This document shows, piece by piece, positions 24,380-41,465 of a DNA stretch of 64,000 nucleotides. Positions within the stretch are counted from its first letter, which is position 1, and each line of letters starts with the position of its first letter. The stretch covers positions 1-64,000 of the forward strand of contig CAIYDT010000056.1 in NCBI GenBank assembly GCA_903924985.1, given 5' to 3'. Under the pieces are notes generated by a model. The model saw nothing but the letters and a program-made list of their open reading frames with translations. It was not told the origin of the DNA and searched no databases. Made by a program: the position numbers and the translations under genes. The stretch comes from an uncultured Acetobacteraceae bacterium (lineage in GTDB: Bacteria; Pseudomonadota; Alphaproteobacteria; Acetobacterales; Acetobacteraceae).

Positions 24380-24383
24380 CGGC

Positions 24384-26059: not shown

Positions 26060-26754
26060 TGCTGACGATTGAGGGCCTCAATACCCATTACGGCGCCAGC
26101 CACGTCCTGCAAGGCGTCGATCTTGTCGTCCCGCCCGGCCGCATCTGCGCGTTGCTAGGGCGCAACGGCGTCGGCAAATCCACCACGCTGCGCAGCATCA
26201 TGGGGCTGGTCACACCGACAAGCGGGCGGGTGATGCTGGATGGGATCGATATCGCCGGCTGGCAGCCGCACCAGGTGGCCCGAGCAGGCGTCGCGTACGT
26301 GCCGGAGGGGCGGTTGATCTTTCCGGACTTAAGCGTGATCGAGAACATCAAGGTGGCCGAACGCACCCAAGCCAAGGCTTGGCCTATCCCCAAGCTGTTG
26401 GAGTTGTTCCCATCGTTGCGCGAACGCGCCCGCAACAAGGGCGCCCATCTGTCCGGCGGCGAACAGCAAATGCTGGCCATCGCGAGAGCGCTGGTGAGCG
26501 ACCCGAAAGTGCTTCTGCTGGATGAGCCGAGTCAGGGACTGGCGCCTTTGGTTGTACGCGAACTGGCGCGCGTGATTCAGGTCCTGTGCGAAACCGGCGT
26601 GACGATCCTCCTGGTCGAGCAGAACATGAAGCTCGCCGAGGCGGTCGCGAACGAACTGCACATCATGGTCAAAGGCCGCATGGTCTACGGCGCCTCCCCC
26701 GAAAAATTCCGCGCCGAAGAGGCGGAGATCAGGAGCCGGTATCTGACGGTGTGA
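26059..26754 (+). CDS. branched-chain amino-acid type ABC ATPase (LivF family)
   Basis: 231-residue second ATPase: Walker A GRNGVGKST, signature LSGGEQQ, Walker B LLLDEPSQGLAP, and the LivF hallmark GVAYVPEGRLIFPDLSVIEN. Last gene of the importer operon; ends 21 nt from the convergent GMC oxidoreductase stop. Confidence 0.93.
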   Translation: MLTIEGLNTHYGASHVLQGVDLVVPPGRICALLGRNGVGKSTTLRSIMGLVTPTSGRVMLDGIDIAGWQPHQVARAGVAYVPEGRLIFPDLSVIENIKVAERTQAKAWPIPKLLELFPSLRERARNKGAHLSGGEQQMLAIARALVSDPKVLLLDEPSQGLAPLVVRELARVIQVLCETGVTILLVEQNMKLAEAVANELHIMVKGRMVYGASPEKFRAEEAEIRSRYLTV

Positions 26755-26775
26755 CAGCGGCGTTCGGCACCCCCC

Positions 26776-28386
26776 CTAAGCCGCCGCCAGCGGTGGCCTC
26801 CCCCGGATCATATCCGAAGCCTTCTCCGCGATCATGATCGTCGGTGCATTCGTATTCCCCGAAGCCACCGTCGGCATGATCGAGGCATCGACCACCCGCA
26901 GCCCCTCCAGCCCATGCACCCGCAATTCCGCATCCACCACGGCCATTGCATCCGGCCCCATGCGGCAGGTGCTGGTCTGGTGGAACGTCGTGCCCCCGGT
27001 GCGGCGCGCGTAATCCAGCAGTTCGTCGTCGGACTGCACGGCGGGGCCGGGGAGATATTCGGACTCGATGAACTTCCGCAGGTGATCCGTTTCCAGGAAT
27101 CGCCGGCACCATTTCAGACTGTCGATAATCGTCCGCTGATCCAGCTCCGCCGACAAATAATTTGGAAACATCGACGGGGTGTCGCGGGGATCGGCGCTGC
27201 GCAGCTTCAGCTCCCCCCGGCTGTCCGGCCGCAATTGATACCCGATCAGCGTAAAGCCGGAGAAATCGTGCAGCCCCTTCGCCGGATTATCCGCGCTGAA
27301 CGGCGAAATGGTGAACTTCACATCCGGGGACGCGTATTCCGGCCGCGTTTTCGCGAATAGCGCTACCGGCCCAACGCCCATGGTCAACGGCCCACGGCGG
27401 CGGAAAATGTAATCCATCCCCACCGCCAGCTTGCGGAAGGAGCTCTGCATCGTGTCGTTCAGTGTGATCGCCTGGTTGCAGCGAAGCTTCACCGCTCCGG
27501 AATAATGGTCCTGCAACGACTGCCCGACGCCCGGCAAATCGTGCACGACATCGATACCATGCTCTTTCAGATGGTCCGCCGGCCCGACGCCGGACAACAG
27601 CAGAATATGCGGGGATCCGATGGCGCCGCCGCACAGGATCACCTCCTTGCGGGCGCGAATGAATTTCTTCACGCCGGCTTCCTCGAACGCGATACCCACG
27701 GCGCGCTTGCCCTCGAACACCACCCGTTCCGTCAAGGCGCGTGTGATCACCCGCAAATTGGGGCGGCTCATCGCGGGTTTCAGATATCCCACGGCGGTGG
27801 ACCAGCGCTTGCCATTTTTGGTGGTGGTCTGCTGGTAGCCGACGCCCTCCTGCACCTTGCCGTTGAAGTCGTCGTTGCGGGGGAAGCCCAACTCTACCGC
27901 CGCCTCGATGAAGGCGTCGCAAATCGGGTGGGTGTAGCGCACGTCCGACACCGCCAGCGGCCCGGCGCCGCCGTGCCAATCGTCGCCGCCGCGTTCCTGG
28001 CTTTCGGATCGTTTGAAATACGGCAGCACATCCCCCGAGGACCAGCCGGGATTGCCGAGTTGCCGCCAGTGGTCGAAATCCTCGTTCTGGCCGCGGATGT
28101 AAATCATGCCGTTGATCGACGACGACCCGCCCAGGACCTTCCCCCGGGGCCAGTACATCCGCCGTCCGCTCGTATCCGGCTCGGTTTCGAACATCCAGTT
28201 GACCTTGGGGTCGGCGAAGGTCTTGCCGAACCCCAGCGGTACATGGATCCAGAAATGGTTGTCGTTGCCGCCGGCCTCCAGCAGCGCCACCTTGGTCTTG
28301 GTATCCTCGGACAGGCGCGCCGCCATGACGCAGCCGGCCGACCCGGCCCCCACGACGACGTAATCGGCTTCCAGAGCTTCGGCCAC
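26776..28386 (-). CDS. GMC-family FAD oxidoreductase (choline/alcohol dehydrogenase-like)
   Basis: 536-residue flavoenzyme oxidising an alcohol. FAD-binding GxGxxG in [23 protein letters not shown] signature 1 in [20 protein letters not shown], signature 2 around [18 protein letters not shown], catalytic His in [13 protein letters not shown], and C-terminal [20 protein letters not shown]. Close to choline dehydrogenase-like dehydrogenases; substrate open. Divergent from the carbamoyltransferase gene with 105 nt between them, which must hold both promoters. Confidence 0.92.
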
Positions 28387-28491
28387 GGCGTTTCTTCCCC
28401 CATTCCCCTTGTCCCCGTAGTGTGCGCGGAGGTTGGGTCCGCCTCAAGAGGCGCATTGTGCGGCGCGACCGCTAAGGAGAAGACTACCCCC

Positions 28492-30642
28492 ATGCCCACG
28501 ACTTTCGGACGATACAGCCCGACCCATCGGCTTCTGGGCCAAGCCGCCCATGCGATCGGCTACCCGGTCCTGTCGGCCTACGCGGCACGCCGATCCTTTC
28601 TGACTCCATCGAGCGCCTATGCCCGGGAACGTTCGGCCGCCCTGACGGCGAAACTCCAACGCGGCGAAACCGCCTGGCTGCTGGGTATCGGCCCCGCTGG
28701 CCACAACAGCGGGGCCGCGCTGGTGGAGGTATCGGCCGAACGCGGCGTGAACCTGATTCGGAACAATGAGGAGGAGCGGTATACCGGGGTCAAGAACTGC
28801 ACCGACTACCCGCAGCACAGCCTGGACGCCCTGATGAGCACCGCGGCCGGACTGGGCATTCGCGCCCAGGACATTCATGCCTGCGTGGCCAGCTGGGATT
28901 ACGTCCAGCTCGCCGCGACCTTGCTGGGCAGCGTTTGCGCCGAACTGCCGGCCAGCCGGATCCTGCTGGACCCCGACCAGTTCGGGGCGATGAACATCAA
29001 GCACATCCGCCGAGCCACGCGGGCGCCGGCTCGCCTGGGTAAGCAGCTGGGGCTGCCTGGGCCGATGCCGATCGTCGGCATGCGGCATCACGGCAATCAC
29101 GCCTATTACTCCTACGCGGCGTCGCCTTTCGTGGGATCGCCGGACCCCGTGCTGATCACCGTCATCGACGGCATCGGCGACGATGGCGCCATTTCCGTCT
29201 ACCTCGCGCGCGCCGGCCGGCTGGCGCTGTTGTACCGAAATCGGGACATTTTCGATTCCCTGGGCGGCTTCTACAGCATGATCAGCTCCACCCAGGGCGG
29301 CTGGACGATCCTCAGCAGCGAGGGGCGCTATATGGGTGCCGTTGCCTGGGGCGACAGCGACCGGATGACCAATCCGTATTATCGCAAGCTGCGGGAGATT
29401 TTTCATTTCGCACCGGGTGGAGAAATCCGGCTGAATCGCGCCTTAGCCAATTGGCCGCGCCGCCTCCAGGCCGAACCCTACACACCGGCGTTGGCGGCAA
29501 TCCTCGGCCCGCCGATCCCGCTGGACAAAATGTGGAACCCGGACGCGGTGATGCGGGTGGACGCCACCGGCGAAACCACCAGCGCGACGGACCGGTTCGA
29601 CAAAGCCGCCGCGACCCAACTGGTGTTCGAGGACGCGCTGTTCCACATCGTCGACCACTACATCCGGGAAACCGGCAGCTCGAAGCTGGTGCTGACCGGC
29701 GGCACCGCGCTGAACGCGATCGCCAATATGCGGCTGATGGACCATTTCGGTACCGGCTATTACCGCCGCAACCTCGGCCGGCCGGACACCTGCCTGCATG
29801 TCTGGGTGCCGCCCATTCCCGGGGATCCCGGAGTCGCGGCAGGCGCGGCGTTCCAGTTCGCCATGCAAGCCGGCGCGAAGCCCGGCGCCCCCCAGCGGCA
29901 CGCCTTCTTTTGCGGCGACGCACCGACCGACAGCGAGATCGAGGCGGCCTTGCGAACCAGCCAGGATATCGGGTGGACGAAGCTCGGATCGGCCTCCGAC
30001 TCAATCGCCGATTTCGTTGCCTCGGTTATCGCTCGGGATGGCGTCCTCGGGTTGTTCCAGGGTGCGGCCGAGACCGGGCCCCGCGCGCTCGGCCACCGGT
30101 CCATCCTTGCCAACCCGTGCAATGCGAAGTCGCTGGAGACCATCAACCGGCTGGTGAAATTCCGCGAGCCGTTCCGGCCCCTGGCGCCGATGGCGACGTT
30201 GGAGGCGGCACAGCGCCTGTTTGTGTTGCAGGACGGGGCCTCGGACGACGACTACAACGCTTACAACTACATGGTGCTGACAGCGCGCCCCCGGCCGGAT
30301 ACGCGCCATGTCATCCCGGCCGTTGTTCACCTCGACAACACCAGCCGCATTCAGATCGTGCGCGCCGACGCCGATCCCTTCACCCATGCCTATTTGCGGG
30401 CGATGGGCCGGCGCGTCGGGGTGGAGGTGTCGGTCAACACCTCGCTCAACGTCGCCGACCCCGTTGTGCAAACACCGGAGCAGGCGCTGGAGGCGTTGCG
30501 GCGCACCAAGGCGATGGACGGCGTGGTGATGATTGGGGCCGAGGGTGGCGCCTTCCTCGCCTGGCACGCCGTTAGCACGTCACCCAAAGACGGCGGCCAG
30601 CGCCTGAATGCCTGGCTGGAGGAATGGAGGAAGCTGTCCTGA
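28492..30642 (+). CDS. NodU/CmcH-family carbamoyltransferase
   Basis: 716-residue enzyme of the family that transfers a carbamoyl group from carbamoyl phosphate to a hydroxyl through carbamoyl-AMP (NodU on Nod factors, CmcH on cephems, TobZ on tobramycin). Kae1-like domain: GIGPAGHNSGAALVEV, EEERYTGVKNCTDYPQHSLD and the metal-binding HHGNHAYYSY (His199, His200, His203). C-terminal domain: ETGPRALGHRSILANP and EVSVNTSLNVADP. The usual HDS near residue 71 is HNS here. AAGGAG precedes ATG 28492 by 12 nt, rather far. First gene of a four-gene overlapping string; it overlaps the kinase gene by 19 nt. The acceptor is unknown. Confidence 0.9.
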   Translation: MPTTFGRYSPTHRLLGQAAHAIGYPVLSAYAARRSFLTPSSAYARERSAALTAKLQRGETAWLLGIGPAGHNSGAALVEVSAERGVNLIRNNEEERYTGVKNCTDYPQHSLDALMSTAAGLGIRAQDIHACVASWDYVQLAATLLGSVCAELPASRILLDPDQFGAMNIKHIRRATRAPARLGKQLGLPGPMPIVGMRHHGNHAYYSYAASPFVGSPDPVLITVIDGIGDDGAISVYLARAGRLALLYRNRDIFDSLGGFYSMISSTQGGWTILSSEGRYMGAVAWGDSDRMTNPYYRKLREIFHFAPGGEIRLNRALANWPRRLQAEPYTPALAAILGPPIPLDKMWNPDAVMRVDATGETTSATDRFDKAAATQLVFEDALFHIVDHYIRETGSSKLVLTGGTALNAIANMRLMDHFGTGYYRRNLGRPDTCLHVWVPPIPGDPGVAAGAAFQFAMQAGAKPGAPQRHAFFCGDAPTDSEIEAALRTSQDIGWTKLGSASDSIADFVASVIARDGVLGLFQGAAETGPRALGHRSILANPCNAKSLETINRLVKFREPFRPLAPMATLEAAQRLFVLQDGASDDDYNAYNYMVLTARPRPDTRHVIPAVVHLDNTSRIQIVRADADPFTHAYLRAMGRRVGVEVSVNTSLNVADPVVQTPEQALEALRRTKAMDGVVMIGAEGGAFLAWHAVSTSPKDGGQRLNAWLEEWRKLS

Positions 30643-31643
30643 CGATCGAATTGCCCCCCGCCGACATTCTCGACGCGTTGCGGCGGATGCACTTAATCCC
30701 CCTTGTCATGGCGGGTGAACGCCTGACCGGCGGCGTGTCCTCCGACATCTGGCGTATTGATTCTCCAAGCGGCCCGATCTGCGTGAAACGGGCACTGGCC
30801 AAGCTGCGCGTCGCTGCCGACTGGCAGGCACCGGTGGAGCGCAATGTGTACGAGGCCCGCTGGATGCAGCGGGCCAACGCCGCCGTTCCCGGTGCGGCGC
30901 CGGCCCTGCTGGGTCAGGATGAGGAGGGCGGCGCCCTGGCCATGGCGTTCCTGCCGCCGGACAACCATCCTTTATGGAAGGCACAACTGCGCGACGGCCA
31001 CGCCGATCCCGCCTTCGCCGCCAAGGTCGCGACCACGCTGGTCCGCATCCACGCCGCCACCGCCGCTGATCCCAGCGTCGCCGCGGACTTTCCCACCGAC
31101 AACATTTTCTACGACATCCGGTTGGAGCCTTACCTGGTCGCTACCGCCCGAGCCCACCCCGATCTGGCGCCCCGGTTCAACGCGTTGGTGGCAACGACCC
31201 AGGCCAACAAGCGCGCGTTGGTGCACGGCGATGTCAGCCCGAAGAACATCTTGTGCGGCCCGGACGGTCCGGTATTCCTGGACGCGGAATGCGCCTGGTG
31301 GGGTGATCCGGCCTTCGATCTGGCCTTTTGCCTGAATCATTTACTTCTCAAGTGCCTCTGGACTCCCACGGCACAGGATGGGTTCCTCGCCTGCTTCGAC
31401 GCCATGGTTGCCGCGTACCGCGCCGGCATCGCGTGGGAACCCGCAGCCGACCTCGAACGGCGCGCGGCGCATCTGCTGCCCGGCCTGTTCCTCGCCAGGG
31501 TGGATGGAAAATCCCCCGTCGAATACATAACCGCCGAACCGGACAAGGACCGGGTGCGCCGCGTGGCGCGCGCGCTGCTGTCCGACCCGCCCGACCGGCT
31601 TGACCCCATCCGGCAAGCCTGGACCCAGGAGTTGCGTGCATGA
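30624..31643 (+). CDS. APH/ChoK-like phosphotransferase
   Basis: 339-residue small-molecule kinase with the aminoglycoside phosphotransferase fold. ATP Lys55 in ICVKRALAKL, catalytic loop HGDVSPKNIL (201-210, Asp203) and the Mg-binding Asp220 in FLDAECAWWGDPAFDLAF. The AEC after the Mg Asp differs from the common DFD. Resistance is not implied: these kinases also act on choline, homoserine, methylthioribose and sugars. Its position between carbamoyltransferase and enolase-like genes, with overlaps of 19 and 4 nt, suggests it phosphorylates a hydroxyacid or sugar acid intermediate. Confidence 0.85.
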   Translation: MEEAVLTIELPPADILDALRRMHLIPLVMAGERLTGGVSSDIWRIDSPSGPICVKRALAKLRVAADWQAPVERNVYEARWMQRANAAVPGAAPALLGQDEEGGALAMAFLPPDNHPLWKAQLRDGHADPAFAAKVATTLVRIHAATAADPSVAADFPTDNIFYDIRLEPYLVATARAHPDLAPRFNALVATTQANKRALVHGDVSPKNILCGPDGPVFLDAECAWWGDPAFDLAFCLNHLLLKCLWTPTAQDGFLACFDAMVAAYRAGIAWEPAADLERRAAHLLPGLFLARVDGKSPVEYITAEPDKDRVRRVARALLSDPPDRLDPIRQAWTQELRA

Positions 31644-32926
31644 CCGACACCAAAATCGCCTTCGTGCACGGCCGCCGCGTCTGGGACAGCCGCGGCCGCC
31701 CCACCGTTGAGGCCGATGTCATGCTGGAATGCGGCGCCGTCGGACGGGCGATCGCGCCCGCCGGCGCTTCCACTGGGTCGGGGGAGGCGGTGGACCTTCG
31801 CGACGGCGGCCCGACGTTCGGCGGCTACGACGTTCGGCGCGCGGTCGCCAACGTGAACGGAGAAATCGCCCGTGCCGTTACTGGGTTGGATGCGGCGGAT
31901 CAGGCGGGGTTGGACCGGGTGCTGATCGAACTGGATGGCACGCCGAATAAGTCGAGGCTCGGCGCCAACGCCGTGCTGTCGGTGTCGATGGCCGCGCTGC
32001 ACGCCGCCGCGCACGAGTCAGGCCAGCCGCTGTTCCGCTACATCGGTGGCGCCGATGCATTCCTGATCCCGCTGCCGCAAATCCAGATCTTTGGGGGTGG
32101 CGCGCATGCCGGGCGGCGCGTCGACATCCAGGATTTCATGATCATGTGCCCCGCCGCCGCCAATTTCGCGGAAGCCCTGGACTGGACGGCCGAGGTCTAT
32201 CGCCACGCCGGCCTGCTGATGAAGGAAACCGGCACCCTGCAAGGCGTTGCCGATGAGGGCGGCTGGTGGCCCGCCTTCACCACCAACGAGCAGGCGCTGG
32301 ACACGCTGGTGCGTGCTATCGAGCGCGCCGGATTCCGCCCCGGCGAGCAGGTGGGGATCGCCCTCGACATCGCGGCATCCGAATTCGGCAGTGGAGGAAA
32401 ATACAAGCTGGCGCTGGAGGACCGGGAACTCGACACCGAAGCGATGGTGAAGATGCTGACCGGCTGGGTCTCCCGTTACCCGGTCTTATCCATTGAGGAC
32501 CCCCTGGCCGAGGACGATACGGAAGGATTCCGCGCCTTCACCGCCGCTGTTGGTAAAAAGGTGCAGATTGTGGGTGACGACTTCCTGGTCAGCGAGGCGT
32601 CCCGTGTCCGCGAGGCCGCGCGTGTCGGCGCCGCCAACACCGTGCTGCTGAAACCAAACCAGCGCGGCACCATTACCGAAACGCTGGACGCCTGGAACGC
32701 CGCCAAGGAGTGCGGGTATTCGGCAATTGTTTCCGCCCGTTCCGGCGAGACGGAGGATACCACGATCGTGCACCTCGCAGTGGGATGGGGTGCCGGGCAG
32801 TTGAAAGTTGGAAGTTTCGCCCGCAGCGAGCGCATGGCGAAGTGGAACGAAACCTTGCGGGTGGAGGAAGCCCTCGGCGGGAAGGCGCGTTACGCGGGCG
32901 GTTCGGTGCTGGGGCGTTCGAAGTGA
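31640..32926 (+). CDS. enolase paralogue with substituted active-site residues
   Basis: 428 residues, aligned end to end with enolase (2-phosphoglycerate to PEP). Metal ligands Asp243, Glu286 and Asp313 and catalytic Lys338 (LLKPNQ), Glu206 (VADEGG) and Lys389 are kept. Four normally invariant positions differ: Ser of the mobile loop SGAST is Ala41; GGEHA is GGAHA (155); the Glu of IQEFM is Asp165; and the His of SHRSGE is Ala366. It is therefore unlikely to be the housekeeping enolase and probably handles a modified 2-phospho-hydroxyacid. Enolase homologues in phosphinothricin synthesis (CPEP synthase) are a precedent for recruitment. ATG overlaps the kinase stop (ATGA). Confidence 0.85.
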   Translation: MTDTKIAFVHGRRVWDSRGRPTVEADVMLECGAVGRAIAPAGASTGSGEAVDLRDGGPTFGGYDVRRAVANVNGEIARAVTGLDAADQAGLDRVLIELDGTPNKSRLGANAVLSVSMAALHAAAHESGQPLFRYIGGADAFLIPLPQIQIFGGGAHAGRRVDIQDFMIMCPAAANFAEALDWTAEVYRHAGLLMKETGTLQGVADEGGWWPAFTTNEQALDTLVRAIERAGFRPGEQVGIALDIAASEFGSGGKYKLALEDRELDTEAMVKMLTGWVSRYPVLSIEDPLAEDDTEGFRAFTAAVGKKVQIVGDDFLVSEASRVREAARVGAANTVLLKPNQRGTITETLDAWNAAKECGYSAIVSARSGETEDTTIVHLAVGWGAGQLKVGSFARSERMAKWNETLRVEEALGGKARYAGGSVLGRSK

Positions 32927-33858
32927 CCAACGTCGTCTTCCACAACAGCGCCGGCCCCGATCTCGCGGCGCGCCTGAAAGCTGTTCCGGATCTGGCCATT
33001 GCCGTCTGCCCCGAAGCCGACGATGCGCTGCTGATGCGCCTGCTGCCGGACTGCGAGGTTCTCTGGCACGTCCTGAAACCCTGCACCGCCGCCATGATCG
33101 CCGCCGCACCGCGCCTGAAACTGATCCAGAAAATCGGGGTCGGGGTGAACACCATCGATCTGGACGCGGCGAAAACCCGCGGCATTCCCGTCTGCAACCT
33201 CCCCGGCACCAACTCCCGTGCCGTCGCCGAGCTGGCGCTGACGCTGATGCTGGCAACGATCCGCCGTATTCCGCGATTCGATGCCGGCTTGCGACAAGGC
33301 GTATGGAGCGATCCCGCACTGCAGGACGGCATTGGGGAGCTGGGCGGCCGTACCGTGGGTTTGGTCGGATACGGATCGATTCCCCGCCTTCTGGCACCGG
33401 TACTGAAGGCGCTCGGCTGTCGCATCGTCTACACCGCGCGTAACCCCGCCCCAGACGCGCTCGGCGACTACCGCTCGCTCGACGCGCTGCTGGCGGAGTC
33501 CGACATTGTCAGTCTGCACGTGCCGCTGACCGATGCGACCGACCGTATCATCGATGCGGCGGCGTTGGCGCGCATGAAACCGGGCGCCATTCTGATCAAT
33601 ACGGCCCGCGGCGGGCTCGTCGACCAACCCGCGCTGGTGCACGCTTTGCGGTCCGAGCATCTCGCGGGTGCCGGGCTCGACGTTTTCGCCGACGAGCCGC
33701 CTGATTTCGCCGATCCTTTATTCGTGCTTCCCAACGTCGTTGCCACCCCGCATATCGCGTGGCTTACCACCGGCACGTTCGACCGGAGTTTCGCCATCGC
33801 GGCGGAAAACTGCCGGCGGGTACTCGCGAATGAGGCATTGTTGCACCGAGTTGTTTAA
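32923..33858 (+). CDS. D-2-hydroxyacid dehydrogenase
   Basis: 311-residue NAD(P)-dependent reductase/oxidase of 2-oxo/2-hydroxy acids. Catalytic Arg229 (INTARGG), Glu258 (DVFADEPP) and His277 (ATPHIAW) are all present. The dinucleotide loop reads GYGSIP (149-154), with Pro where the third Gly normally sits. GTG 32923 overlaps the enolase-like stop (GTGA), so the gene is coupled to it. In context it may make or consume the hydroxyacid used by the kinase and enolase-like enzyme, for example hydroxypyruvate/glycerate-like compounds; this is inference. Confidence 0.88.
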   Translation: MTNVVFHNSAGPDLAARLKAVPDLAIAVCPEADDALLMRLLPDCEVLWHVLKPCTAAMIAAAPRLKLIQKIGVGVNTIDLDAAKTRGIPVCNLPGTNSRAVAELALTLMLATIRRIPRFDAGLRQGVWSDPALQDGIGELGGRTVGLVGYGSIPRLLAPVLKALGCRIVYTARNPAPDALGDYRSLDALLAESDIVSLHVPLTDATDRIIDAAALARMKPGAILINTARGGLVDQPALVHALRSEHLAGAGLDVFADEPPDFADPLFVLPNVVATPHIAWLTTGTFDRSFAIAAENCRRVLANEALLHRVV

Positions 33859-33893
33859 CGGTTGACCGCCGCCATGAAAATCCTTTCAACAAA

Positions 33894-34104
33894 ATGGGGA
33901 CGTCATCGGGTCATTGCGTACAAACCTGGCCGGAAGGCACTCGTTACGTCGGTGACTGGGTCAACGGCCAGCGGCTTCGGACGGCTGCGTGCCCAGGACG
34001 GCCAGACTTATGAGTGTTACTGGTCTAATGGCTGCTATCGCGATGGCGATCGCATAGCATGGTTTGGGCCGGCGGGCGCGGGCGGCCTCGAAACCTGCCC
34101 CTGA
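33894..34104 (+). pseudogene. frameshifted MORN-repeat gene relic
   Basis: From ATG 33894 one frame encodes a MORN repeat (TWPEGTRYVGDWVNGQR, 33924-33974) and then drifts to a stop. The next MORN repeat (RAQDGQTYECYWSNG, about 33988-34032) is in another frame, which runs to the stop at 34102-34104. A small deletion near 33970-33985 would explain this. Read only in the second frame, from ATG 33874, there is an 76-residue open frame that could be misannotated as a hypothetical protein. MORN repeats bind lipids or proteins; this copy is probably non-functional. Confidence 0.6.
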
Positions 34105-34110
34105 ATCGCG

Positions 34111-34174
34111 CGATACAAACGATACAAATCTCCCCGCTCACGACATCGTGACGATACAAATATCCCGTATCGTC
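34111..34174. promoter_or_regulatory. iterated CGATACAAA repeats with dyad upstream of the AfsA-like gene
   Basis: Three copies of CGATACAAA at 34111-34119, 34120-34128 and 34152-34160, plus a perfect dyad GACGATAC/GTATCGTC with a 9-nt spacer at 34150-34174. The spacing and symmetry look like binding sites of a dimeric regulator. It ends 28 nt before the start of the second gene string, where an operator would repress or recruit polymerase. No regulator gene is adjacent. Confidence 0.55.
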
Positions 34175-34202
34175 CCGACATCGACAGGTAGGGAGACCGC
34201 CG

Positions 34203-34706
34203 ATGAACGCGATGGCCGATGCGAAGAACATCTCCACGGGTCTGGCGCATGTGGACCATGAGAGCGACCTGCTGGTGCATGCCGTGAAGCGGGTGCTGCG
34301 GCCGAATTCCTACCTCTCCACCTTCTCGGTTCCTCCCAACCATCCAAGTGTTACTGAAGACAAGGTGCCGGGTTCGGCGTTTCAGGAAGCGGGTCAGCAA
34401 CTGGTGCGGGCGGTCAGCCATCTGTTTCAAGGCGTGCCGACAGACCATGGTATCGCCATTCACGAATCCCACGTGGCGTTCCGAGCCCACGCGAAGACTG
34501 GCGTGCCAGTCGAGGCGATGGTGCATCTGGAGATCGATCGCGACAATCCCCGGCATTTCCCGCGGCAATGGGTCTCGACCATCGATTTCTGGCAGGAAGG
34601 CGTCCGCGTCGCCGAGGCGCACTTCCAGTTCGTGACCTTGCCGCGTTCCGTGGGCAATCCCATGATGTCCCGGCATCATGGGCACCCCTCCGCCGCCGTC
34701 GCCTGA
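34203..34706 (+). CDS. AfsA-like hotdog-fold protein
   Basis: 167 residues resembling the A-factor biosynthesis hotdog domain: EDKVPGSAFQEAGQQLVRAV corresponds to the DHVPGMxLxEAARQ helix of AfsA, followed by a strand-rich second half (EAMVHLEIDRDN; WVSTIDFWQEGVRVAEAHF). AfsA joins a beta-ketoacyl chain with dihydroxyacetone phosphate to start butyrolactone signals. AfsA itself carries two such domains; this protein has one. GGGAG precedes ATG 34203. The next gene starts inside its last codons. Assignment rests on one motif and on pattern; a thioesterase/dehydratase-type hotdog is an alternative. Confidence 0.55.
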   Translation: MNAMADAKNISTGLAHVDHESDLLVHAVKRVLRPNSYLSTFSVPPNHPSVTEDKVPGSAFQEAGQQLVRAVSHLFQGVPTDHGIAIHESHVAFRAHAKTGVPVEAMVHLEIDRDNPRHFPRQWVSTIDFWQEGVRVAEAHFQFVTLPRSVGNPMMSRHHGHPSAAVA

Positions 34707-35667
34707 ACCACCTGTCCTTCGCCTGCTGGCAGACGACCTGACCGGGGCGCTGGACAGCGCCGCGCGGTTCGTGCCGCTGGTCGGGCCCGTACCCGTGGTG
34801 TGGTCGGGCGACATCCCAGTCGGCACGGTTGCGGTGGACAGTGGGACCCGCGATCTGCCGCCGGACGATGCCGCCGCGGCGATGCAACGGCTGTCCGGGG
34901 CGCTGCATGGCGGCAACATCGCCTTCAAGAAAATCGACAGCCTCCTGCGCGGTCACGTGGCGCTGGAACTCGATGCCTGCCGCGCCGGCTTCGAGCATTG
35001 CATCGTCGCGCCGGCCTTCCCATTCCAGGGCCGGATCACCCGCGGCGGGCGGCAACTGGTGCGCGCCGGCGACGGGTGGCGCGATACCGGCGTCGATTTG
35101 CCATTGCGGGACGCGGAAACCGACGCCGATCTGGCCGCCATTGTCGCGGAGGTGCGTTTGGGCAGCGTGCTGTGGGTCGGGACTGGCGGCTTGGCCGGCG
35201 CGCTGACGGGGCGGCGCCCCGTGCCGGGCCCAGTGCTGTCCGGTCCGGTTTTGGCGCTGATCGGATCCGATCATCCCATAACGCTAGGCCAGCTCGCCAC
35301 CGCCGGGTCACTGCACCATCGGCTGCACCATCGTCTGCCTGGGCCGTTGCCGTCGTTGCCCGCCGCCGTCTCGGTAGAGCTGCCGCCGGCCACCACACGC
35401 GACGCCGCAACCCAGAAGATCGCCGCCGCATTCGCCGCGTTGCTGGCGGAACTACCACGTCCAGGCACCATCTTCGTCACCGGCGGCGCCACACTCCGCT
35501 CCCTCTGCGACGCGCTCGGCGTCGCTGGCCTGACCGTCGATGGGGAGGTGGAACCGGGCGTCCCGACCTCGATCGTGCGCGGCGGCGCCTGGGACGGTCA
35601 GCGCATCGTGTCCAAATCGGGCGCGTTCGGCGACACGGGGCTGTTGGCGCGCCTGCTGCGCCTGTAG
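34678..35667 (+). CDS. four-carbon acid sugar kinase family protein (DUF1537)
   Basis: 329-residue kinase of the DUF1537 family (OtnK/DtnK/DenD group), known to phosphorylate D-threonate, D-erythronate or related four-carbon acids with ATP. N-terminal LRLLADDLTGALDSAARF with the substrate Asp-Asp, IAFKKIDSLLRGHVALELDA with the KxDS/LRG motif, and C-terminal ATP domain with FVTGGATLRSLCDALG and SKSGAFGD. Shorter than the common 420 residues. Overlaps the AfsA-like gene by 29 nt; a PdxA2-type dehydrogenase, the next step of this pathway, is encoded three genes on. Confidence 0.88.
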   Translation: MGTPPPPSPEPPVLRLLADDLTGALDSAARFVPLVGPVPVVWSGDIPVGTVAVDSGTRDLPPDDAAAAMQRLSGALHGGNIAFKKIDSLLRGHVALELDACRAGFEHCIVAPAFPFQGRITRGGRQLVRAGDGWRDTGVDLPLRDAETDADLAAIVAEVRLGSVLWVGTGGLAGALTGRRPVPGPVLSGPVLALIGSDHPITLGQLATAGSLHHRLHHRLPGPLPSLPAAVSVELPPATTRDAATQKIAAAFAALLAELPRPGTIFVTGGATLRSLCDALGVAGLTVDGEVEPGVPTSIVRGGAWDGQRIVSKSGAFGDTGLLARLLRL

Positions 35668-35677
35668 ACTTCGCGTC

Positions 35678-36400
35678 ATGTCATCCACCGCGTCCGAACA
35701 CCGCCGCCCCAGCATGCACCTCACCGCGGCGGAGGGCTTGGCGATGATCATGCCGACCCCCCGGATCCCAATGGCGGAACTGCTTGCGGCAGCGCCCAGA
35801 GGCGACGGGCACGCGGTATTGGTGCTGCCGGGGCTAGGGCACGGCGACCCTTACACGGCGACGGTCCGAACCTTCCTCATCGACATCGGTTATGACGTGC
35901 ATGGCTGGGAGCTCGGCGTCAATTTCGGTCCCACCGATCAGCTGATCGTCGCGGCGACCGACCGGCTGGTGACCCTGTCCAACCGCTACGGCCCCATCAG
36001 TGTCGTTGGGTTCAGCATGGGCGGCCTGTTCGCCCGGCTGCTTGCCGGGCGCATGCCGGAACGGGTGCGGCGGGTTGTTACCGTGTGTAGCCCGATCCAT
36101 GAACCCGCCCGCAGCTTTTGGCTACCGATGGGGCCGGTCGTCGGGCTTTGGGGCGGCGGCGACCTGGATCGTATGGCCGAGGAAATCCGCCATGAATTGC
36201 CGGTCCCATGCACCGCCGTCTACAGCCGTGAAGATGGCCTGGTGAACTGGTCCGCCTGCGTGGACTCATCGGACACCGCCGAATCCATCGAAATCGGCGG
36301 TCCGCACGTGCTGATCGCGAGCAATCCCGAGGTCCTGACCATCCTCGGCAAAACCCTGGCGCGCGCCGCCACATCCAACGGAGACCAACCATGCGACTAG
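35678..36400 (+). CDS. alpha/beta hydrolase
   Basis: 240-residue serine hydrolase with the nucleophile elbow GFSMGG, an oxyanion-side LVLPGLGHGDPYTATVRTFL strand-turn, a plausible acid in the SREDGLV segment and a final GGPHVLIASNP with the catalytic His. Lacks a signal peptide. Substrate unknown; could open a lactone or an ester in the four-carbon acid pathway. Begins 10 nt after the kinase stop and overlaps the LLM gene by 10 nt. Confidence 0.8.
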   Translation: MSSTASEHRRPSMHLTAAEGLAMIMPTPRIPMAELLAAAPRGDGHAVLVLPGLGHGDPYTATVRTFLIDIGYDVHGWELGVNFGPTDQLIVAATDRLVTLSNRYGPISVVGFSMGGLFARLLAGRMPERVRRVVTVCSPIHEPARSFWLPMGPVVGLWGGGDLDRMAEEIRHELPVPCTAVYSREDGLVNWSACVDSSDTAESIEIGGPHVLIASNPEVLTILGKTLARAATSNGDQPCD

Positions 36401-37290
36401 GCGTCATGTTGCCGCTGCACGACATCGGCGGTGACCCCGATACGATGGGCAATTTTGTCGCCAGGACCGAAGTGCAGGGCTACACCAACCTGGGCCTCGC
36501 CGATCATGTGCTGGGGGTGAACGCCGCCAGCCGGCCGGATTGGGGGGACCGCAACACCTCCGCCGATCTGTTTCACGACCCCTTCGTGTGCTTCGCCTAT
36601 TTGGCCGGCATCGCCCGCAAGACCACCGAGTTCTCCACTCAGGTGCTGATCCTGGCGCAGCGGCAGGCGGTGCTGGTGGCCAAGCAGGCGGCCAGTCTGG
36701 ACGTGCTGTGCGGCGGGCGCTTCCGCCTCGGCGTCGGCGTCGGCTGGAACCCGGTGGAGTTCACCGGCCTGAACGAGAATTTCTCCAATCGCGGCCGCCG
36801 CTCCGCCGAACAGGTCGAGGTGATGCAGAAGCTTTGGGCGAACGAACACGTCACCTTCGAGGGCCGCTGGCACAAGATCGAGGACGCCGGCATCAACCCC
36901 CGCCCGAAATCCGGCCGCGTCCCCGTCTGGTTCGGAGGCCACGTGCCGCAGACGCTGGATCGCATCGCCACGCTGGGCGACGGCTGGATCATGAACGCCT
37001 ACCCGCCCGGCGACGCCGCCTTGGCCGAGTTCGCGAAGCTGCGGGACCTCGCCAGGCAGGCCGGGCGCGCACCGGACGCCATCGGCATCGAGGTCTGGAC
37101 CTCCGCCGGCGCCGGCACCCCGGCCGAGTGGAAGGAAGAGGCGAAGTTCTGGAAGGCGGCGGGGGCAACGCACTTGACCCTGACCAATACCTTCCAGCGC
37201 CGCCACCATCGCCGCATCGCCGGCAAGACGGTCGAAGCCCACCTCGCGGCGCAACAAGCGTACGCCGACGCGGTGGCGAGCGTGCTGTGA
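36391..37290 (+). CDS. LLM-class flavin/F420-dependent oxidoreductase
   Basis: 299-residue luciferase-like TIM barrel of the TIGR03619 type. Visible: MRLGVMLPLHDIGG, STQVLILAQRQAVLVAKQAASLDVLCGGRFRLGVGVGWN, and PVWFGGHVPQTLDRIATLGDGW. Uses FMN or F420; substrate unknown. ATG 36391 lies within the end of the hydrolase gene. Its stop overlaps the GTG of the PdxA2 gene, so all five genes of the string are coupled. Confidence 0.88.
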   Translation: MRLGVMLPLHDIGGDPDTMGNFVARTEVQGYTNLGLADHVLGVNAASRPDWGDRNTSADLFHDPFVCFAYLAGIARKTTEFSTQVLILAQRQAVLVAKQAASLDVLCGGRFRLGVGVGWNPVEFTGLNENFSNRGRRSAEQVEVMQKLWANEHVTFEGRWHKIEDAGINPRPKSGRVPVWFGGHVPQTLDRIATLGDGWIMNAYPPGDAALAEFAKLRDLARQAGRAPDAIGIEVWTSAGAGTPAEWKEEAKFWKAAGATHLTLTNTFQRRHHRRIAGKTVEAHLAAQQAYADAVASVL

Positions 37291-38327
37291 CGGGTTCCCC
37301 TTGCCTCGGCATCACCATGGGCGACCCCGCCGGGGTCGGGCCGGAGATCATCGTCAAAGCCGCCCGCCGCCTGAAACCCCGCCTCGACGCGGGGGAGCTG
37401 CGGCTGTTGGTGATCGGGCACCGCTCCGCCCTCCATGCCGCGCGGGACGTACTGAAGGAAACGCTGGTGTTCCCCGACGTTGACGGGGAATCCGACCTTC
37501 CATCCCTGGCAATGCACGCCGCGACCGAAGAACGCAGCCCCATCCGCTTCGGCCATGTCGATCCCGAGTGCGGCCGCTTCGCCTACATGGCCATGGAGCG
37601 CGCCGTCACCCTGGCGCAGCAGGGCCGCATCGACGGCATCGTAACCGCGCCCCTGAACAAGGAAGCGCTGAACCTCGCCGGCTACAAATACGCCGGGCAT
37701 ACCGACATGCTGGCCGATCTGACCCACACCAAAAGCAGCTACATGCTGCTGGCGCATGGCGATATGCGGGTCACCCATGTCACCACGCATGTCGCGCTGG
37801 AGGATGTGCCCAAACTGCTGACGCCGGATCGCCTCCGCCGCACCATCGACATCACCCACCAGGCGATGCTGGACCTCGGGATCGAAAAACCCCGCATTGC
37901 CATCGCCGCCCTGAATCCCCACGCCGGGGAGGGCGGGCTGTTCGGCCGCCAGGATATCGAGGTCAGCGCCCCCGTGATCGCACAATGCCGAGCGGAGGGG
38001 ATGGACATCCGGGGGCCTGTGCCGGGGGATACGGTGTTCGTGAAGCTCCGCGCCCGCCAATACGACGCCGTGGTGGCGATGTATCACGACCAGGGTCACA
38101 TCCCGGTGAAGCTGTTGGGCTTCCACGTCGATCCCATCACCGGCGTGTGGCAGGCGCTTTCGGGGGTGAATATCACGCTCGGCCTGCCGGTGATCCGCAC
38201 CTCGGTCGATCACGGCACCGCCTTCGACATTGCGGGGACCGGTATCGCCAATGAAGACAGCCTGATCGAGGCCATTGACTACGCCCTGCGTCTTGCCGCG
38301 GTAAAACGGGCACGCGCGGCGATTTGA
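37287..38327 (+). CDS. PdxA/PdxA2-family 4-hydroxythreonine-4-phosphate dehydrogenase-like protein
   Basis: 346-residue NAD-dependent decarboxylating dehydrogenase. GITMGDPAGVGPEIIVKA at the start, metal His in YAGHTDMLADL, DALED-type THVALEDVPKLL, and RTSVDHGTAFDIAGTG at the end. PdxA acts in pyridoxal phosphate synthesis; PdxA2 oxidises 4-phospho-threonate/erythronate to DHAP and CO2. The neighbouring DUF1537 kinase favours PdxA2. GTG 37287 overlaps the upstream stop. A vitamin B6 role cannot be excluded without seeing whether another pdxA exists. Confidence 0.88.
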   Translation: MTGSPCLGITMGDPAGVGPEIIVKAARRLKPRLDAGELRLLVIGHRSALHAARDVLKETLVFPDVDGESDLPSLAMHAATEERSPIRFGHVDPECGRFAYMAMERAVTLAQQGRIDGIVTAPLNKEALNLAGYKYAGHTDMLADLTHTKSSYMLLAHGDMRVTHVTTHVALEDVPKLLTPDRLRRTIDITHQAMLDLGIEKPRIAIAALNPHAGEGGLFGRQDIEVSAPVIAQCRAEGMDIRGPVPGDTVFVKLRARQYDAVVAMYHDQGHIPVKLLGFHVDPITGVWQALSGVNITLGLPVIRTSVDHGTAFDIAGTGIANEDSLIEAIDYALRLAAVKRARAAI

Positions 38328-38339
38328 GCCGCCCCGGCA

Positions 38340-38353
38340 TTGATCCAAATCAA
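38340..38353. promoter_or_regulatory. FNR/FixK-type box with class II promoter geometry
   Basis: TTGATCCAAATCAA is a perfect match to the TTGAT-N4-ATCAA consensus of FNR/Anr/FixK regulators. A -10-like TAGAAT lies at 38377-38382; a start near 38389 would put the box centre at about -42, the classical activating position. It precedes the CBS protein gene by 50 nt and predicts induction under oxygen limitation. Confidence 0.75.
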
Positions 38354-38402
38354 TGTGGGTCCCGTTACGGCTGCCATAGAATCTCAATAATTGGAGGTTC
38401 AA

Positions 38403-38825
38403 ATGTCCTACCGCGATATGGCTGAGATTATTCGCAACCAGATTCCGCTGGCGGTGCGGCCGGACACCACCATTCAGGAAACCTGCAAGCGTATGTACGC
38501 GCGCAAGGTGGGGGCCGCGCTGGTCACCAACGACAAGGGCATTCTGGTGGGCATCTTTACCGGCCGCGACGCCGTGCGGGTACTGTCCCGCGGCCGCGAT
38601 CCCGGCGCCACGCTGGTCAAGCACGCGATGACCAAGTCGCCCGAGACCATTCCGCCGAAATCGCACGCTATCGAAGCGTTGCGCCTGATGCGCGACGGTG
38701 GCTTCCGGCATTTGCCGGTCGTGGAGAACGGTACCGTGCTGGGCATCGTCTCCCGCGGCGACTTCCGGGGGCTGGAACACGACCGGCTGGACCACGAAAC
38801 CGGCATTTGGGAAAGGATTGGCTAA
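38403..38825 (+). CDS. CBS-domain pair protein
   Basis: 140 residues consisting almost only of two CBS domains (about 12-70 and 75-130; VRPDTTIQETCKRMYARKVG and IPPKSHAIEALRLMRDGGFR), which bind adenine nucleotides. GGAGG precedes ATG 38403. Stand-alone CBS proteins often respond to low oxygen (for example HRP1), and the FNR-type box upstream supports that here. No partner enzyme is adjacent. Confidence 0.9.
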   Translation: MSYRDMAEIIRNQIPLAVRPDTTIQETCKRMYARKVGAALVTNDKGILVGIFTGRDAVRVLSRGRDPGATLVKHAMTKSPETIPPKSHAIEALRLMRDGGFRHLPVVENGTVLGIVSRGDFRGLEHDRLDHETGIWERIG

Positions 38826-38870
38826 CCGCGACTTGCGGGTGGGTGCCTTCCCCGGGTAAGGAGTCGGCCC

Positions 38871-39452
38871 ATGCAAAAGCACTCGATCCATAGGCACACG
38901 ACCCGCGCTCTGCTTCTGGCCGGCAGCGCCCTCCTGCTCGCCGGTTGCGAAACCGGCGGCTTGGCTCGCACGTTCGGTCTGACCCGCGATGCGCCGGATG
39001 AATTCATGGTGACCACGCGGGCGCCTTTGTCCTTGCCGCCCGATTATAACCTGCGCCCGCCGCGCCCCGGCGCACCCCGCCCGCAGGAACAGTCGGAACA
39101 GCAGCAGGCGGAAGAAATCCTGGTGCCGCAAACCGCGCTGGCCGGGCCAAATACCGGTGCTCCCAGCCCGGGTCAGCTCGCGTTGCTGCAGCAGAGCGGT
39201 CCCAGCGCCCCGGCCGACATCCGCCGCCGCGTCGATCAGGACGCCAGGATGGACAAGGCCGACGACGGGTTCATCGACAAGCTGTTGTACTGGCGTAAGC
39301 CAAACGGCAAGGAAGCCGTCGTCGACCCGAACGCCGAGGCCCAACGCGTCAAGGCGAACGCCGCCCTCGGACAATCCCAGGATAACGGCACCACGCCGAT
39401 CATTCAGGAAAAACGTAAGGGCTGGTTCCAGAGTCTGTTCTCCTGGTTTTGA
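38871..39452 (+). CDS. DUF3035-type lipoprotein
   Basis: 193-residue protein with a lipoprotein signal peptide (LLLAGSALLLAGCETGG, lipobox LAGC). After Cys it has the DUF3035 features RDAPDEFMVTTRAPLSLPPD YNLRPPRPG, a Gln-rich disordered middle and a short C-terminal WFQSLFSWF segment. Likely anchored in the outer membrane; function unknown. The same family is found next to lipoprotein signal peptidase in other alphaproteobacteria. Confidence 0.8.
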   Translation: MQKHSIHRHTTRALLLAGSALLLAGCETGGLARTFGLTRDAPDEFMVTTRAPLSLPPDYNLRPPRPGAPRPQEQSEQQQAEEILVPQTALAGPNTGAPSPGQLALLQQSGPSAPADIRRRVDQDARMDKADDGFIDKLLYWRKPNGKEAVVDPNAEAQRVKANAALGQSQDNGTTPIIQEKRKGWFQSLFSWF

Positions 39453-39472
39453 TCGGGGCTGACGCAGCCGCG

Positions 39473-40660
39473 ATGGAGCGGACACCGCATTTCGTTCAAA
39501 CCGCCGGCCGGCCGGTCTTCACCGGCCAGGGCACCGGCGAACTGACCTGCCGGTGCGGCCAGTCGGTGCTGGTGCGTGGCTACGATCCACGGAACTTCCT
39601 GGCGGTGGATTTTCAGTGCGCCAGCTGTGGCGCGATCACCACCACGCCGGGGCTCTCGGCGCTGAACAGCCCGCCCGCTGCTGTCGTCCCTCTGGAACGC
39701 ACCGCCGATGCCCCGCCGGAGGGCGCGTCTATCCCGCCCGGAAGGGTGCTCGCCGGGCGGGAGGAACTCGACCGCCTTATGCATATCTACCAGCCGCGTG
39801 GTCCGGAGTCGGAGTACGTGACGGTGACGGACGAATGGTTGGAGTCCCTCGGGGCTGACTATGACCGGCTGACCGGTGGGTTGCTCGCGACGCATCTGGA
39901 CGTGGTTGCGTCGGCAGAAGCGGAAAAGCCGCTGTCGGGTCTGGCGAAACACCGCCTGGCATGGGCCCTGCACACGCTGCGCGCCGGCATCCGCGACCCG
40001 GACTGGTCCTGCACGAGGTCGAGCGACGCCTCGGTCGCGACGACGATGGCGGGCGCTTTCCGCTATTTTACCGATTGCTGGTCGCACCACCCGCTGTTCC
40101 CGGAAATGGCGGCGGCGGCGGCCGATACCGGCTTCTCCCTGCACGGCATGGCATTGTTCGCCACCGCCAAGGCGCTGTCGGACTCCGGCAACCGGATCGC
40201 CTTTCTGCCACCGCGGGATGGATCCGGACGGGTGCGGGACTTCGCCATCGCGATGGGGCCCGCGGATCGGCTCACCTGCGTCGTCGACGTGTTCGACGGG
40301 TACGAATGGCCAACCGGCCGTACGAAATGGGAGTTTCTGGAACTGCGTGCGGCCGTGCTGGAGCGGCTGTTGGCGTCGAAGGCCCGCATCAACCAGAAGC
40401 GGCCCGGCATGATTGTGCTGTCCCCTGGCGCGATGTGGGAAACCATGGAGCAGCCACTGGTCGACGCGATTATCACCGCCTTCCATTCGCACGGGCGCCG
40501 TTACCGCCATGTCTCGGCGCTCAGCGTGATCCTGGCGAAGATCAAAGAGACCGACGAACGGAATACCGCGCGGTTCGGCTATACGTTCTTGCCGTTCGCC
40601 AATCCCCGCCACACCGCCGTGACGGTCCACGTGGCGGACATCGGTGGCGTTACCGTCTAG
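39473..40660 (+). CDS. uncharacterised protein with N-terminal zinc-ribbon-like motif
   Basis: 395-residue protein of no family I recognise. Residues 17-50 hold a likely zinc ribbon: LTCRCGQSVLV and, 21 residues on, FQCASCGAITTTPG. The rest is mixed alpha/beta with two notable segments, a helical stretch around RAGIRDPDW and a Rossmann-like central part (MIVLSPGAMWETMEQPLVDA). No membrane segment. ATG 39473 is preferred to TTG 39449, which overlaps the previous gene. Its 3' end overlaps the convergent next gene by 11 nt. Confidence 0.65.
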   Translation: MERTPHFVQTAGRPVFTGQGTGELTCRCGQSVLVRGYDPRNFLAVDFQCASCGAITTTPGLSALNSPPAAVVPLERTADAPPEGASIPPGRVLAGREELDRLMHIYQPRGPESEYVTVTDEWLESLGADYDRLTGGLLATHLDVVASAEAEKPLSGLAKHRLAWALHTLRAGIRDPDWSCTRSSDASVATTMAGAFRYFTDCWSHHPLFPEMAAAAADTGFSLHGMALFATAKALSDSGNRIAFLPPRDGSGRVRDFAIAMGPADRLTCVVDVFDGYEWPTGRTKWEFLELRAAVLERLLASKARINQKRPGMIVLSPGAMWETMEQPLVDAIITAFHSHGRRYRHVSALSVILAKIKETDERNTARFGYTFLPFANPRHTAVTVHVADIGGVTV

Positions 40661-41465
40661 AAGCGGGAGAAACCGGGGCGCTTCGGATCGCCTGGGCCGC
40701 GATATGGGCCGGCAAAGCCGGGATGTCGCCATTCCCTCCAGCGCCGGGTAGCATCAGGACCTCCGCCATCGGGCGCTTTGTCGCCGAACGGGGCAGACGA
40801 TCGCGGAACAGATGCCGCCCTTCCTCGGTCAGCGCCGCTTCGTTCACGAACCGTAAATCCAGCACGGCAACCATTGGTCTATCGGGGGAGGCGTCGGCAC
40901 TGGCGGTATGCAGCGCCAGACGAGCCTCGGCGAAGCGGTGATCCGGCCCGGCCTGACGTGCGATGCGGTGCGCCAGCGCGGCCGTCCGCATCGATATCAC
41001 ACTGCCATCCGGCTCCGGATAGAAGCTTGCGTCTTGGATGCCGCGGGACACACGGCGGAGGACGCGGCACAAAGACGGGTTGCGGGTGCGTGCCAAGATC
41101 GCGAGCGGGCGCTCTTCCCATGTTTCGAGGCGCAGGATGAGATAAGCGAGCATGCGCTTCAGCAGCGCCTCGTCGCGCTGAACGGGCCCGCCGCTCAAGG
41201 CCTCAATGACCAAAAACGGCGTCTTTCCCGCCGTCTGGTTTTGCACCAGCAAGGCGCCGACATATTTGCCGCTGCGATTGTCGCGCACCACCAGCACGCG
41301 GTCGAAGCTATTGAAGCCCTGCATGTCTAACCAGACCCGCTGGCGCGACGGGACTCCGGCATCCCGCAGATCGGCCAATATCTGGCTTTGGTCGAGTTCG
41401 CCGATCTGCCGTGCGCCCCCCACATCGTCCAATTTCAGGCCCATCCCCACAAGTGTGCGGTTCAT
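40650..41465 (-). CDS. uncharacterised protein
   Basis: 271-residue soluble protein, family not recognised. The centre (FDRVLVVRDNRSGKYVGALL; LIRLETWEERPLAILARTRN; RVLRRVSRG) has the strand-helix pattern of a GNAT-like acyltransferase, with a divergent motif A, but this is weak. The C-terminal third is helical and basic. It lies convergent to the zinc-ribbon protein and downstream of the cold-shock gene, from which it is separated by a terminator. Confidence 0.5.
   Translation of the reverse strand: MNRTLVGMGLKLDDVGGARQIGELDQSQILADLRDAGVPSRQRVWLDMQGFNSFDRVLVVRDNRSGKYVGALLVQNQTAGKTPFLVIEALSGGPVQRDEALLKRMLAYLILRLETWEERPLAILARTRNPSLCRVLRRVSRGIQDASFYPEPDGSVISMRTAALAHRIARQAGPDHRFAEARLALHTASADASPDRPMVAVLDLRFVNEAALTEEGRHLFRDRLPRSATKRPMAEVLMLPGAGGNGDIPALPAHIAAQAIRSAPVSPASRR

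Follow-up and report, generated by a model that had tools for sequence, protein, structure and literature searches.

Enolase (phosphopyruvate hydratase, TIGR01060) is usually treated as functionally uniform. In the serine cycle, hydroxypyruvate is converted successively to glycerate, 2-phosphoglycerate and phosphoenolpyruvate (PEP). The acid-sugar dehydratases of the mandelate-racemase type belong to the enolase superfamily, are not true enolases and act without a kinase. Here, a cluster of nine genes (28492-38327) was analysed in a 64,000-nucleotide stretch of the draft genome of an uncultured Acetobacteraceae bacterium (assembly GCA_903924985.1, contig CAIYDT010000056.1, positions 1 to 64,000; hereafter the window). 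The subject is the pair formed in it by an APH-fold kinase and a paralogue of the true enolases. The reaction proposed below resembles that of the mandelate-racemase-type enzymes in that a proton next to a carboxylate would be abstracted before an elimination, but the window protein differs in being a true-enolase paralogue with a kinase partner. SAR202 paralogues of the enolase superfamily are an example of mandelate-racemase-type acid-sugar dehydratases (PMC6946804). As cited in PMC10971088, Zhang et al. (2016) assigned DUF1537 together with PdxA2 to the catabolism of four-carbon acid sugars.

Based on the comparison of loci, it was concluded that the conserved unit was the APH-fold kinase (30624..31643, plus strand; PF01636, 56.1 bits) together with the enolase paralogue (31640..32926, plus strand), and that the other genes of the two strings came and went. 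A search with the kinase query covered 299 Acetobacteraceae genomes and gave 67 positives at an E value of 1e-30 or better. The 43 family loci compared, picked by the kinase, were 40 places among these positives together with L005, L090 and L091 (the last from G094, one of the 67); 25 kinase-positive family genomes lay outside the sample. The enolase paralogue was found about 1 kb downstream of the kinase, side by side and on the same strand, in all 43 loci. The counts of all other genes of the cluster, and of a GMC oxidoreductase upstream of it, are lower bounds in these loci, some contigs ending early. A D-2-hydroxyacid dehydrogenase of at least 60% identity was present in 31 of them.

The reverse search was performed class-wide with the enolase query in 385 genomes and yielded 40 genomes at an E value of 1e-132 or better. 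With the window's own genome excluded, 32 of the 384 sampled genomes matched at 55-72% identity and the other seven at 51-53%. Comparison was made for 29 of the 32 loci with an enolase of at least 55% identity (G456, G553 and G660 were left out, as were G528 and G654 from the 51-53% matches). In 26 of these 29 loci, kinase and enolase were same-strand neighbours. The two genes lay on one strand with one gene between them in L203, and the stretches of L192 and L206 had no kinase, which was located on another contig of both genomes. Phylum-wide, nine of 398 genomes were positive including that of the window, one of the nine being outside the class. Plasmid records with the enolase paralogue included Rhizobium, Paracoccus, Roseibium, Azospirillum, Cupriavidus and Caballeronia; six plasmid records carried no gene annotation in the compared stretch.

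When 50 paralogue loci were tabulated jointly, all had Asp and Ala at the two altered active-site positions described below, and 46 had the kinase in the stretch. In six loci, of the Rhizobium type and from Cupriavidus, the kinase was 6.5-8 kb from the enolase and on the opposite strand. The kinase-free stretches were L192 and L206, plus L238 and L239, for which the flanks measured 1.5 kb only. All four of these genomes carried the kinase elsewhere at 53-61% identity, in two of them within about 9 kb on the same contig, and one copy had an in-frame stop. The APH kinase was found in every paralogue-bearing genome checked for it. By contrast, Glu and His stood at these positions in seven housekeeping enolases of 48-52% identity, and none of their stretches contained the kinase. 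The L159 enolase was 52% identical to the paralogue, like the housekeeping enolase of L218, yet it had Asp, Ala and the kinase; the Trp and Arg that are further marks of the paralogues were absent. The kinase-enolase module is spread across many proteobacteria, and the pairing is constant over alpha- and betaproteobacteria.

The window paralogue scored 503.7 bits against TIGR01060 (cut-off 300), and its relatives, where annotated, are called eno or phosphopyruvate hydratase in public annotation. The housekeeping enolase of the same genome was a separate gene (G000:C46), 48% identical to the paralogue. Yeast residue numbering is used throughout and is assumed to apply to the paralogue. The protein is like enolase in length, in the Mg ligands, in the Lys345/Glu211 pair and in Arg374, Ser375 and Lys396, all of these residues being invariant in the paralogue rows with a residue there (68-71 rows); His159 was also kept. 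It differs from enolase in Glu168, replaced by Asp, in His373, replaced by Ala, in a Trp after the DEGG(W/F/Y) motif, in a loop 2 Arg and in its kinase partner. The alignment comprised 71 paralogues and six housekeeping enolases, H_L221 being left out of the housekeeping set. The Glu168 position was Asp in 71 of 71 paralogues and Glu in all six housekeeping enolases, and the His373 position was Ala in all 68 paralogues with a residue there (three rows had none) and His in all six housekeeping enolases. The Trp was present in 69 and the loop 2 Arg (position 160) in 68 of the 71 paralogues. With no gene call for the paralogue, L193 and L215 stood outside the 71-row alignment; both had Asp and Ala in the 50-locus table. 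The two best PDB chains for the paralogue had Glu and His at both positions. In a tree of 37 of the 71 paralogues and the six housekeeping enolases, the latter formed one side of a branch with 100/100 support, and L159 was a long-branch row of unsure placement.

We take Glu168 and His373 to be active-site residues next to the C3 hydroxyl of 2-phosphoglycerate. An enolase-like step had been predicted in the preliminary description, and the altered residues argue for such a step by a modified enzyme. A simple spare enolase was rejected because Asp and Ala replaced the two residues uniformly across the paralogues and the kinase partner was constant. Together, the two catalytic replacements and the constant partner imply a missing reaction, catalysed by a subfamily that is annotated as phosphopyruvate hydratase. 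The reference list of PMC5237310 includes the title of a paper on His373 mutagenesis.

The HGDxSPKN motif of the kinase and its later acidic residues (D220/E222) were kept in 62 of the 62 rows with a residue there, so the kinase should be active; no close solved structural relative of it was found. The D-2-hydroxyacid dehydrogenase (32923..33858, plus strand, GTG start; PF02826/PF00389) had a conserved Arg/Glu/His triad (R229, E258, H277), and its nearest families were phosphoglycerate dehydrogenases and glycerate/glyoxylate reductases.

From the observed linkage and residue changes, we infer the phosphorylation site, the substrate, the product and the direction of the reaction as follows. The core of the cluster may be a two-enzyme module in which the APH kinase and a neofunctionalised enolase make an enol phosphate from a 2-hydroxy acid, and this proposal was given an even chance of being correct. 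The kinase would phosphorylate a D-2-hydroxy acid at its 2-hydroxyl; the likeliest candidate is a 2,3-dihydroxy (aldonic) acid that is larger than glycerate or otherwise altered at C3. The enolase, which retains its metal, acid/base and phosphate ligands and carries two substitutions close to the C3 leaving group, would then take the C2 proton and the C3 group, resulting in PEP or a C3-substituted PEP. The dehydrogenase may feed or drain the module by interconverting a 2-oxo acid and the 2-hydroxy acid. A broader version was considered possible, with clearly less confidence. It posits a widespread, undescribed route in which a dedicated APH kinase 2-O-phosphorylates sugar-derived 2,3-dihydroxy acids and a neofunctionalised true enolase dehydrates them, so that PEP or an analogue of it keeps the phosphate of ATP; in loci with linked FAA hydrolase and SDR genes, PEP itself would be set free after oxidation at C4 and hydrolysis.

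The neighbour genes gave hints of both product and substrate. In Rhizobium indicum, N324, Pop5 and CIAT894, PEP carboxylase, dehydrogenase and kinase genes followed one another as one run, convergent with a cluster of ABC transporter, cupin, enolase, VOC and ADH genes. The N324 PEP carboxylase displayed what we take to be the usual motifs of that enzyme, and a PEP carboxylase match of 64%, cut by the end of the stretch, was seen in Pararhizobium A13. The Rhizobium run fits PEP as the product. FAA hydrolase and SDR genes came after the kinase and enolase genes in Roseibium and Paracoccus seriniphilus, with sugar ABC and tripartite (TRAP) transporters alongside, and in Sinorhizobium chiapasense a lactonase gene in addition stood beside the module. 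Queries with the FAA hydrolase matched 14 loci outside the family. The adjoining lactonase, FAA hydrolase, SDR and TRAP/sugar transporter genes of these several taxa fit the catabolism of sugar or hydroxy acids.

A number of observations weigh against the proposed module chemistry. Twelve of the 43 family loci (where some contigs stop short) lacked the dehydrogenase, as did 19 of the 29 class-wide loci when an identity of at least 53% was required, and that of the Rhizobium clusters was just 38-40% identical to the window's. PEP carboxylase beside the kinase was limited to the four Rhizobium records and Pararhizobium A13; in the family, its matches were distant (26-27%), far upstream and confined to L005 and L120. 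Within the family, the FAA hydrolase queries had no match in any of the 43 loci. Other neighbours (SspB, a DEAD helicase, glycosyltransferases, UbiD, a transposase and an integrase) had no link to sugar or hydroxy acids. For a Pfam tally, each recurring family was entered once, which gave 289 candidates; 149 of these neighbours were picked and 138 were scanned, so that recurring families are understated. Little was shared: MFS was top with seven, followed by FAA hydrolase, TauD and ABC permease with four each. The genes recurring near the module in the family, namely D-serine-dehydratase-like (13 loci), SelA-like (12), MlrC (11) and HpcH/HpaI (8), are unused by the proposed chemistry. The neighbour genes point to sugar or hydroxy acids and to no single compound.

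Genes for pyridoxal-phosphate enzymes of the D-serine-dehydratase/D-threonine-aldolase type were observed near the module, for example in L148, L132, L140 and L146, and one lay directly downstream of the dehydrogenase in L211. In Azospirillum brasilense Sp7, a PEP-mutase-family gene, an Fe-ADH gene and a PhyH protein gene were located near the module. A phosphonate link was dropped, as the PEP-mutase-family protein of that strain reads IEDG and is without the EDK...NS motif, which we assume to mark PEP mutase. Elsewhere, with the second Azospirillum record (L244) excluded, one weak match each was obtained for the PEP-mutase-family protein (L192) and Fe-ADH (L211), and none for PhyH.

Among the alternatives, a plain glycerate route survived best and was nevertheless judged unlikely. 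The dehydrogenase would convert hydroxypyruvate to D-glycerate, the APH protein would be an unrecognised glycerate 2-kinase, and the paralogue would be a spare enolase yielding PEP, like in the serine cycle. Such a path is compact, with three steps, and the closeness of the dehydrogenase to the phosphoglycerate dehydrogenases and glycerate/glyoxylate reductases agrees with it. The cluster is like the serine-cycle segment in the reaction types of its dehydrogenase, kinase and enolase and in the PEP carboxylase of Rhizobium, which the route would also account for. It differs from that segment in a kinase of another family, in the altered enolase active site and in a MOFRL glycerate kinase that is still there. 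The uniform replacement of two catalytic residues speaks against the route, and the genome already has a housekeeping enolase and the MOFRL kinase. Since the latter was found in 61 of the 67 kinase-positive and in 166 of the 232 kinase-negative family genomes, the APH kinase was rejected as its replacement and the glycerate route became less likely.

It was considered rather improbable that the strings only lie side by side, with no pathway in common and with unrelated substrates for the kinase and the enolase. The wider neighbourhood is indeed variable, and in a few genomes the two genes are separated or on different contigs. Against it stand the altered active site and a pairing that stays constant over alpha- and betaproteobacteria.

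A variant with another leaving group was rated slightly lower still. A 3-substituted lactate, for example 3-sulfolactate, would be phosphorylated at the 2-position, and the enolase would expel the C3 substituent instead of water, resulting in PEP. Phosphosulfolactate is a known metabolite. Both altered residues presumably lie on the C3 side, the new Arg160 of 68 of the 71 paralogues could bind an anion, and PEP carboxylase would consume the PEP formed. No gene for sulfite oxidation or export was among the 25 commonest of 167 tallied neighbour families, and such a variant is at odds with the lactonase, the FAA hydrolase and the transporters for sugars.

The remaining explanation concerned the first gene of the cluster, which encodes a NodU/TobZ-type O-carbamoyltransferase of 716 amino acids (28492..30642, plus strand). 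It is like the NodU, TobZ and GdmN carbamoyltransferases in having both Carbam_trans domains (Carbam_trans_N/C; PF02543, 58.5 bits, and PF16861, 158.6 bits), and its PDB relatives are GdmN and TobZ (7vzu, 3ven). It differs from them in scoring far below the NodU equivalog cut-off (94.6 bits against 1000) and in relatives without string-1 neighbours. NodU was found at an E value of 1e-60 in two of the 299 family genomes, and its identity to the window protein was 87% in L005 and 79% in L006. The best 80 relatives listed were mostly from Bradyrhizobium and its kin, with some from Planctomycetes, Actinobacteria and others. Among the NodU matches listed, the module was alongside in L005 only. At 80 other NodU loci (L006-L084 and L085 of G094; some short), gene calls, which recovered NodU itself in 79 of the 80, revealed no APH, enolase, dehydrogenase, AfsA, DUF1537 or PdxA2; other labels there were LivK-like (5) and GMC-like (1). 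In G300 and G094, which both carry the module, NodU and the module were on different contigs.

The four genes of the first string had been proposed to form a single pathway with a carbamoylated intermediate or product. Their co-occurrence beyond close relatives was borne out for the kinase and the enolase, and often for the dehydrogenase; it failed for NodU, whose only places beside the module, among the loci examined, were those in the window and L005. A four-gene pathway in which NodU carbamoylates an acid, so that the carbamate is in an intermediate or the product, is therefore very improbable, even though the four genes overlap in a single string both in the window and in L005, NodU evolves under constraint and the kinase is present in all four Acetobacteraceae genomes found with a window-type NodU: the module is without NodU in 42 of the 43 family loci, none of the 80 other NodU loci has the module, and NodU was rejected as a pathway member.

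The position of NodU points to how it was acquired. A GMC oxidoreductase gene (26776..28386, minus strand; Pfam GMC_oxred_N/C) diverges from the module, and 16 of the 43 family loci had such a divergent gene upstream, separated from the module by NodU in L005. Next to it lies a conserved intergenic block (28387..28452; GGCGTTTCTTCCCC ... GTAGTGTGCGCGG ... GCCTCAAGAGGC). Comparison by eye revealed its counterpart in the gap between GMC and kinase of L120, L090 and L121 and in the gap between GMC and NodU of L005 and the window. The block is a probable shared promoter/operator, its first part probably serving as the ribosome-binding site of GMC. Codon 30639-30641 aligned with the kinase start of relatives and overlapped the NodU stop, the overlap being GTGA in L005 and CTGA in the window by eye. 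Because the block precedes the kinase in relatives and NodU in the window and L005, and because the NodU stop overlaps the kinase-start codon, NodU appears to have been inserted between the old promoter-like block and the kinase start. It would have its promoter region in common with the kinase gene, as well as the start codon of the latter, and would be dispensable for the core chemistry. The operon's newest gene should not be read into the chemistry of the operon. In L120 (8788-9000), a 38-amino-acid frame between the promoter-like block and the kinase ended in a GTGA overlap like that of the L005 NodU and by eye had no resemblance to NodU.

The ratio of nonsynonymous to synonymous substitution rates (dN/dS) between the window and L005 was obtained by simple counting, with synonymous sites near saturation, and was 0.076 for NodU, 0.05-0.12 for the core, 0.07-0.08 for LLM and PdxA2, and 0.42 and 0.31 for the faster evolving AfsA and DUF1537. 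NodU is maintained under purifying selection.

The second string, all on the plus strand, began with an AfsA-like protein (34203..34706; PF03756, 36.1 bits) of 167 amino acids with one hotdog domain, which scored 31.3 bits against the ScbA/BarX equivalog level of 200. It was followed by a short DUF1537 kinase-like protein (34678..35667, 329 amino acids), an alpha/beta hydrolase (35678..36400; PF00561, 34 bits), an LLM-class flavin/F420 oxidoreductase (36391..37290; TIGR03619, 226.9 bits against a cut-off of 166.9) and a PdxA2-type dehydrogenase (37287..38327, GTG start; PF04166, 351 bits; TIGR00557 above cut-off). The DUF1537 protein matched SBD_N at 3-128 of 230 and NBD_C at 86-166 of 168 only, with SBD_N 129-230 and NBD_C 1-85 skipped, and so is no complete kinase with full SBD_N and NBD_C. 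All module-side DUF1537 proteins were short (316-356 amino acids by gene calls) and may be a distinct subfamily. A 431-amino-acid open frame with a full SBD_N was present at G000:C124 of the same genome. The PdxA2 protein scored 294.9 bits against the D-threonate 4-phosphate dehydrogenase model PRK03371, below its cut-off of 583, and is a PdxA-family dehydrogenase encoded beside DUF1537; two further PdxA-like genes occur in the genome.

The string is like the DUF1537 and PdxA2 system, as far as the cited excerpt describes it, in having DUF1537 and PdxA-type genes together, and differs from it in a DUF1537 protein without the middle of the family and in the linkage to a kinase-enolase-dehydrogenase module. 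DUF1537 was beside the module in nine of the 43 family loci and PdxA2 nearby in eight. NodU, AfsA, hydrolase and LLM were part of the string in one of the 43 (L005), besides the window. The joining of both strings in the preliminary description thus held in a minority of Acetobacteraceae for DUF1537 and PdxA2, which recur beside the module, and did not extend to the AfsA, hydrolase and LLM genes, the first two being lineage-specific. In some Acetobacteraceae, the short DUF1537 protein and PdxA2 may add a four-carbon acid-sugar branch to the module.

Searches of open-access papers gave no report of a pair of APH kinase and enolase, subscription papers being mostly outside the coverage. In PMC4902934, which has both terms, 'enolase' denotes the glycolysis step and 'aminoglycoside phosphotransferase' a selection marker, both unrelated to the pair.

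The gene content of 28492-38327 was as first described, nine genes in two overlapping strings with the families named. The nine open frames were all on one strand and had codon bias. The GC-position caller recovered eight of the nine stops and missed that of PdxA2; the codon-usage caller recovered all nine, six of the genes being part of its training set. The family names were backed by Pfam and NCBIfam matches. Within each string, the genes overlapped or were at most 10 bases apart, and the gap between the strings was 344 bases. The host draft genome comprised 5.59 Mb in 285 contigs with a completeness of 98.7% and a contamination of 7.5%. Contamination is an unlikely origin of the stretch, because the genus-mate G235 has the kinase and the enolase at 87% and 96% identity and the same divergent GMC gene. 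No match was obtained in an Rfam scan of 26000-40000, and no tRNA in a scan of the whole window.

Further genes were observed on both sides of the cluster. Upstream, on the same strand (19133-26754), were two lactonases (one SMP-30, one seven-bladed), an ABC transporter of the branched-chain type and a cupin; the Rhizobium enolase clusters likewise contain ABC transporter and cupin genes, and no LivK match occurred in the compared stretches of L005 or L120. At 39404-41465, two minus-strand frames (39404-40732 and 40650-41465) and a plus-strand frame (39449-40660), with no Pfam match, overlapped one another. A CBS-domain protein was encoded at 38403-38825, 3' of PdxA2, and a CBS gene was also located 3' of PdxA2 in L123 and 3' of the dehydrogenase in L124.

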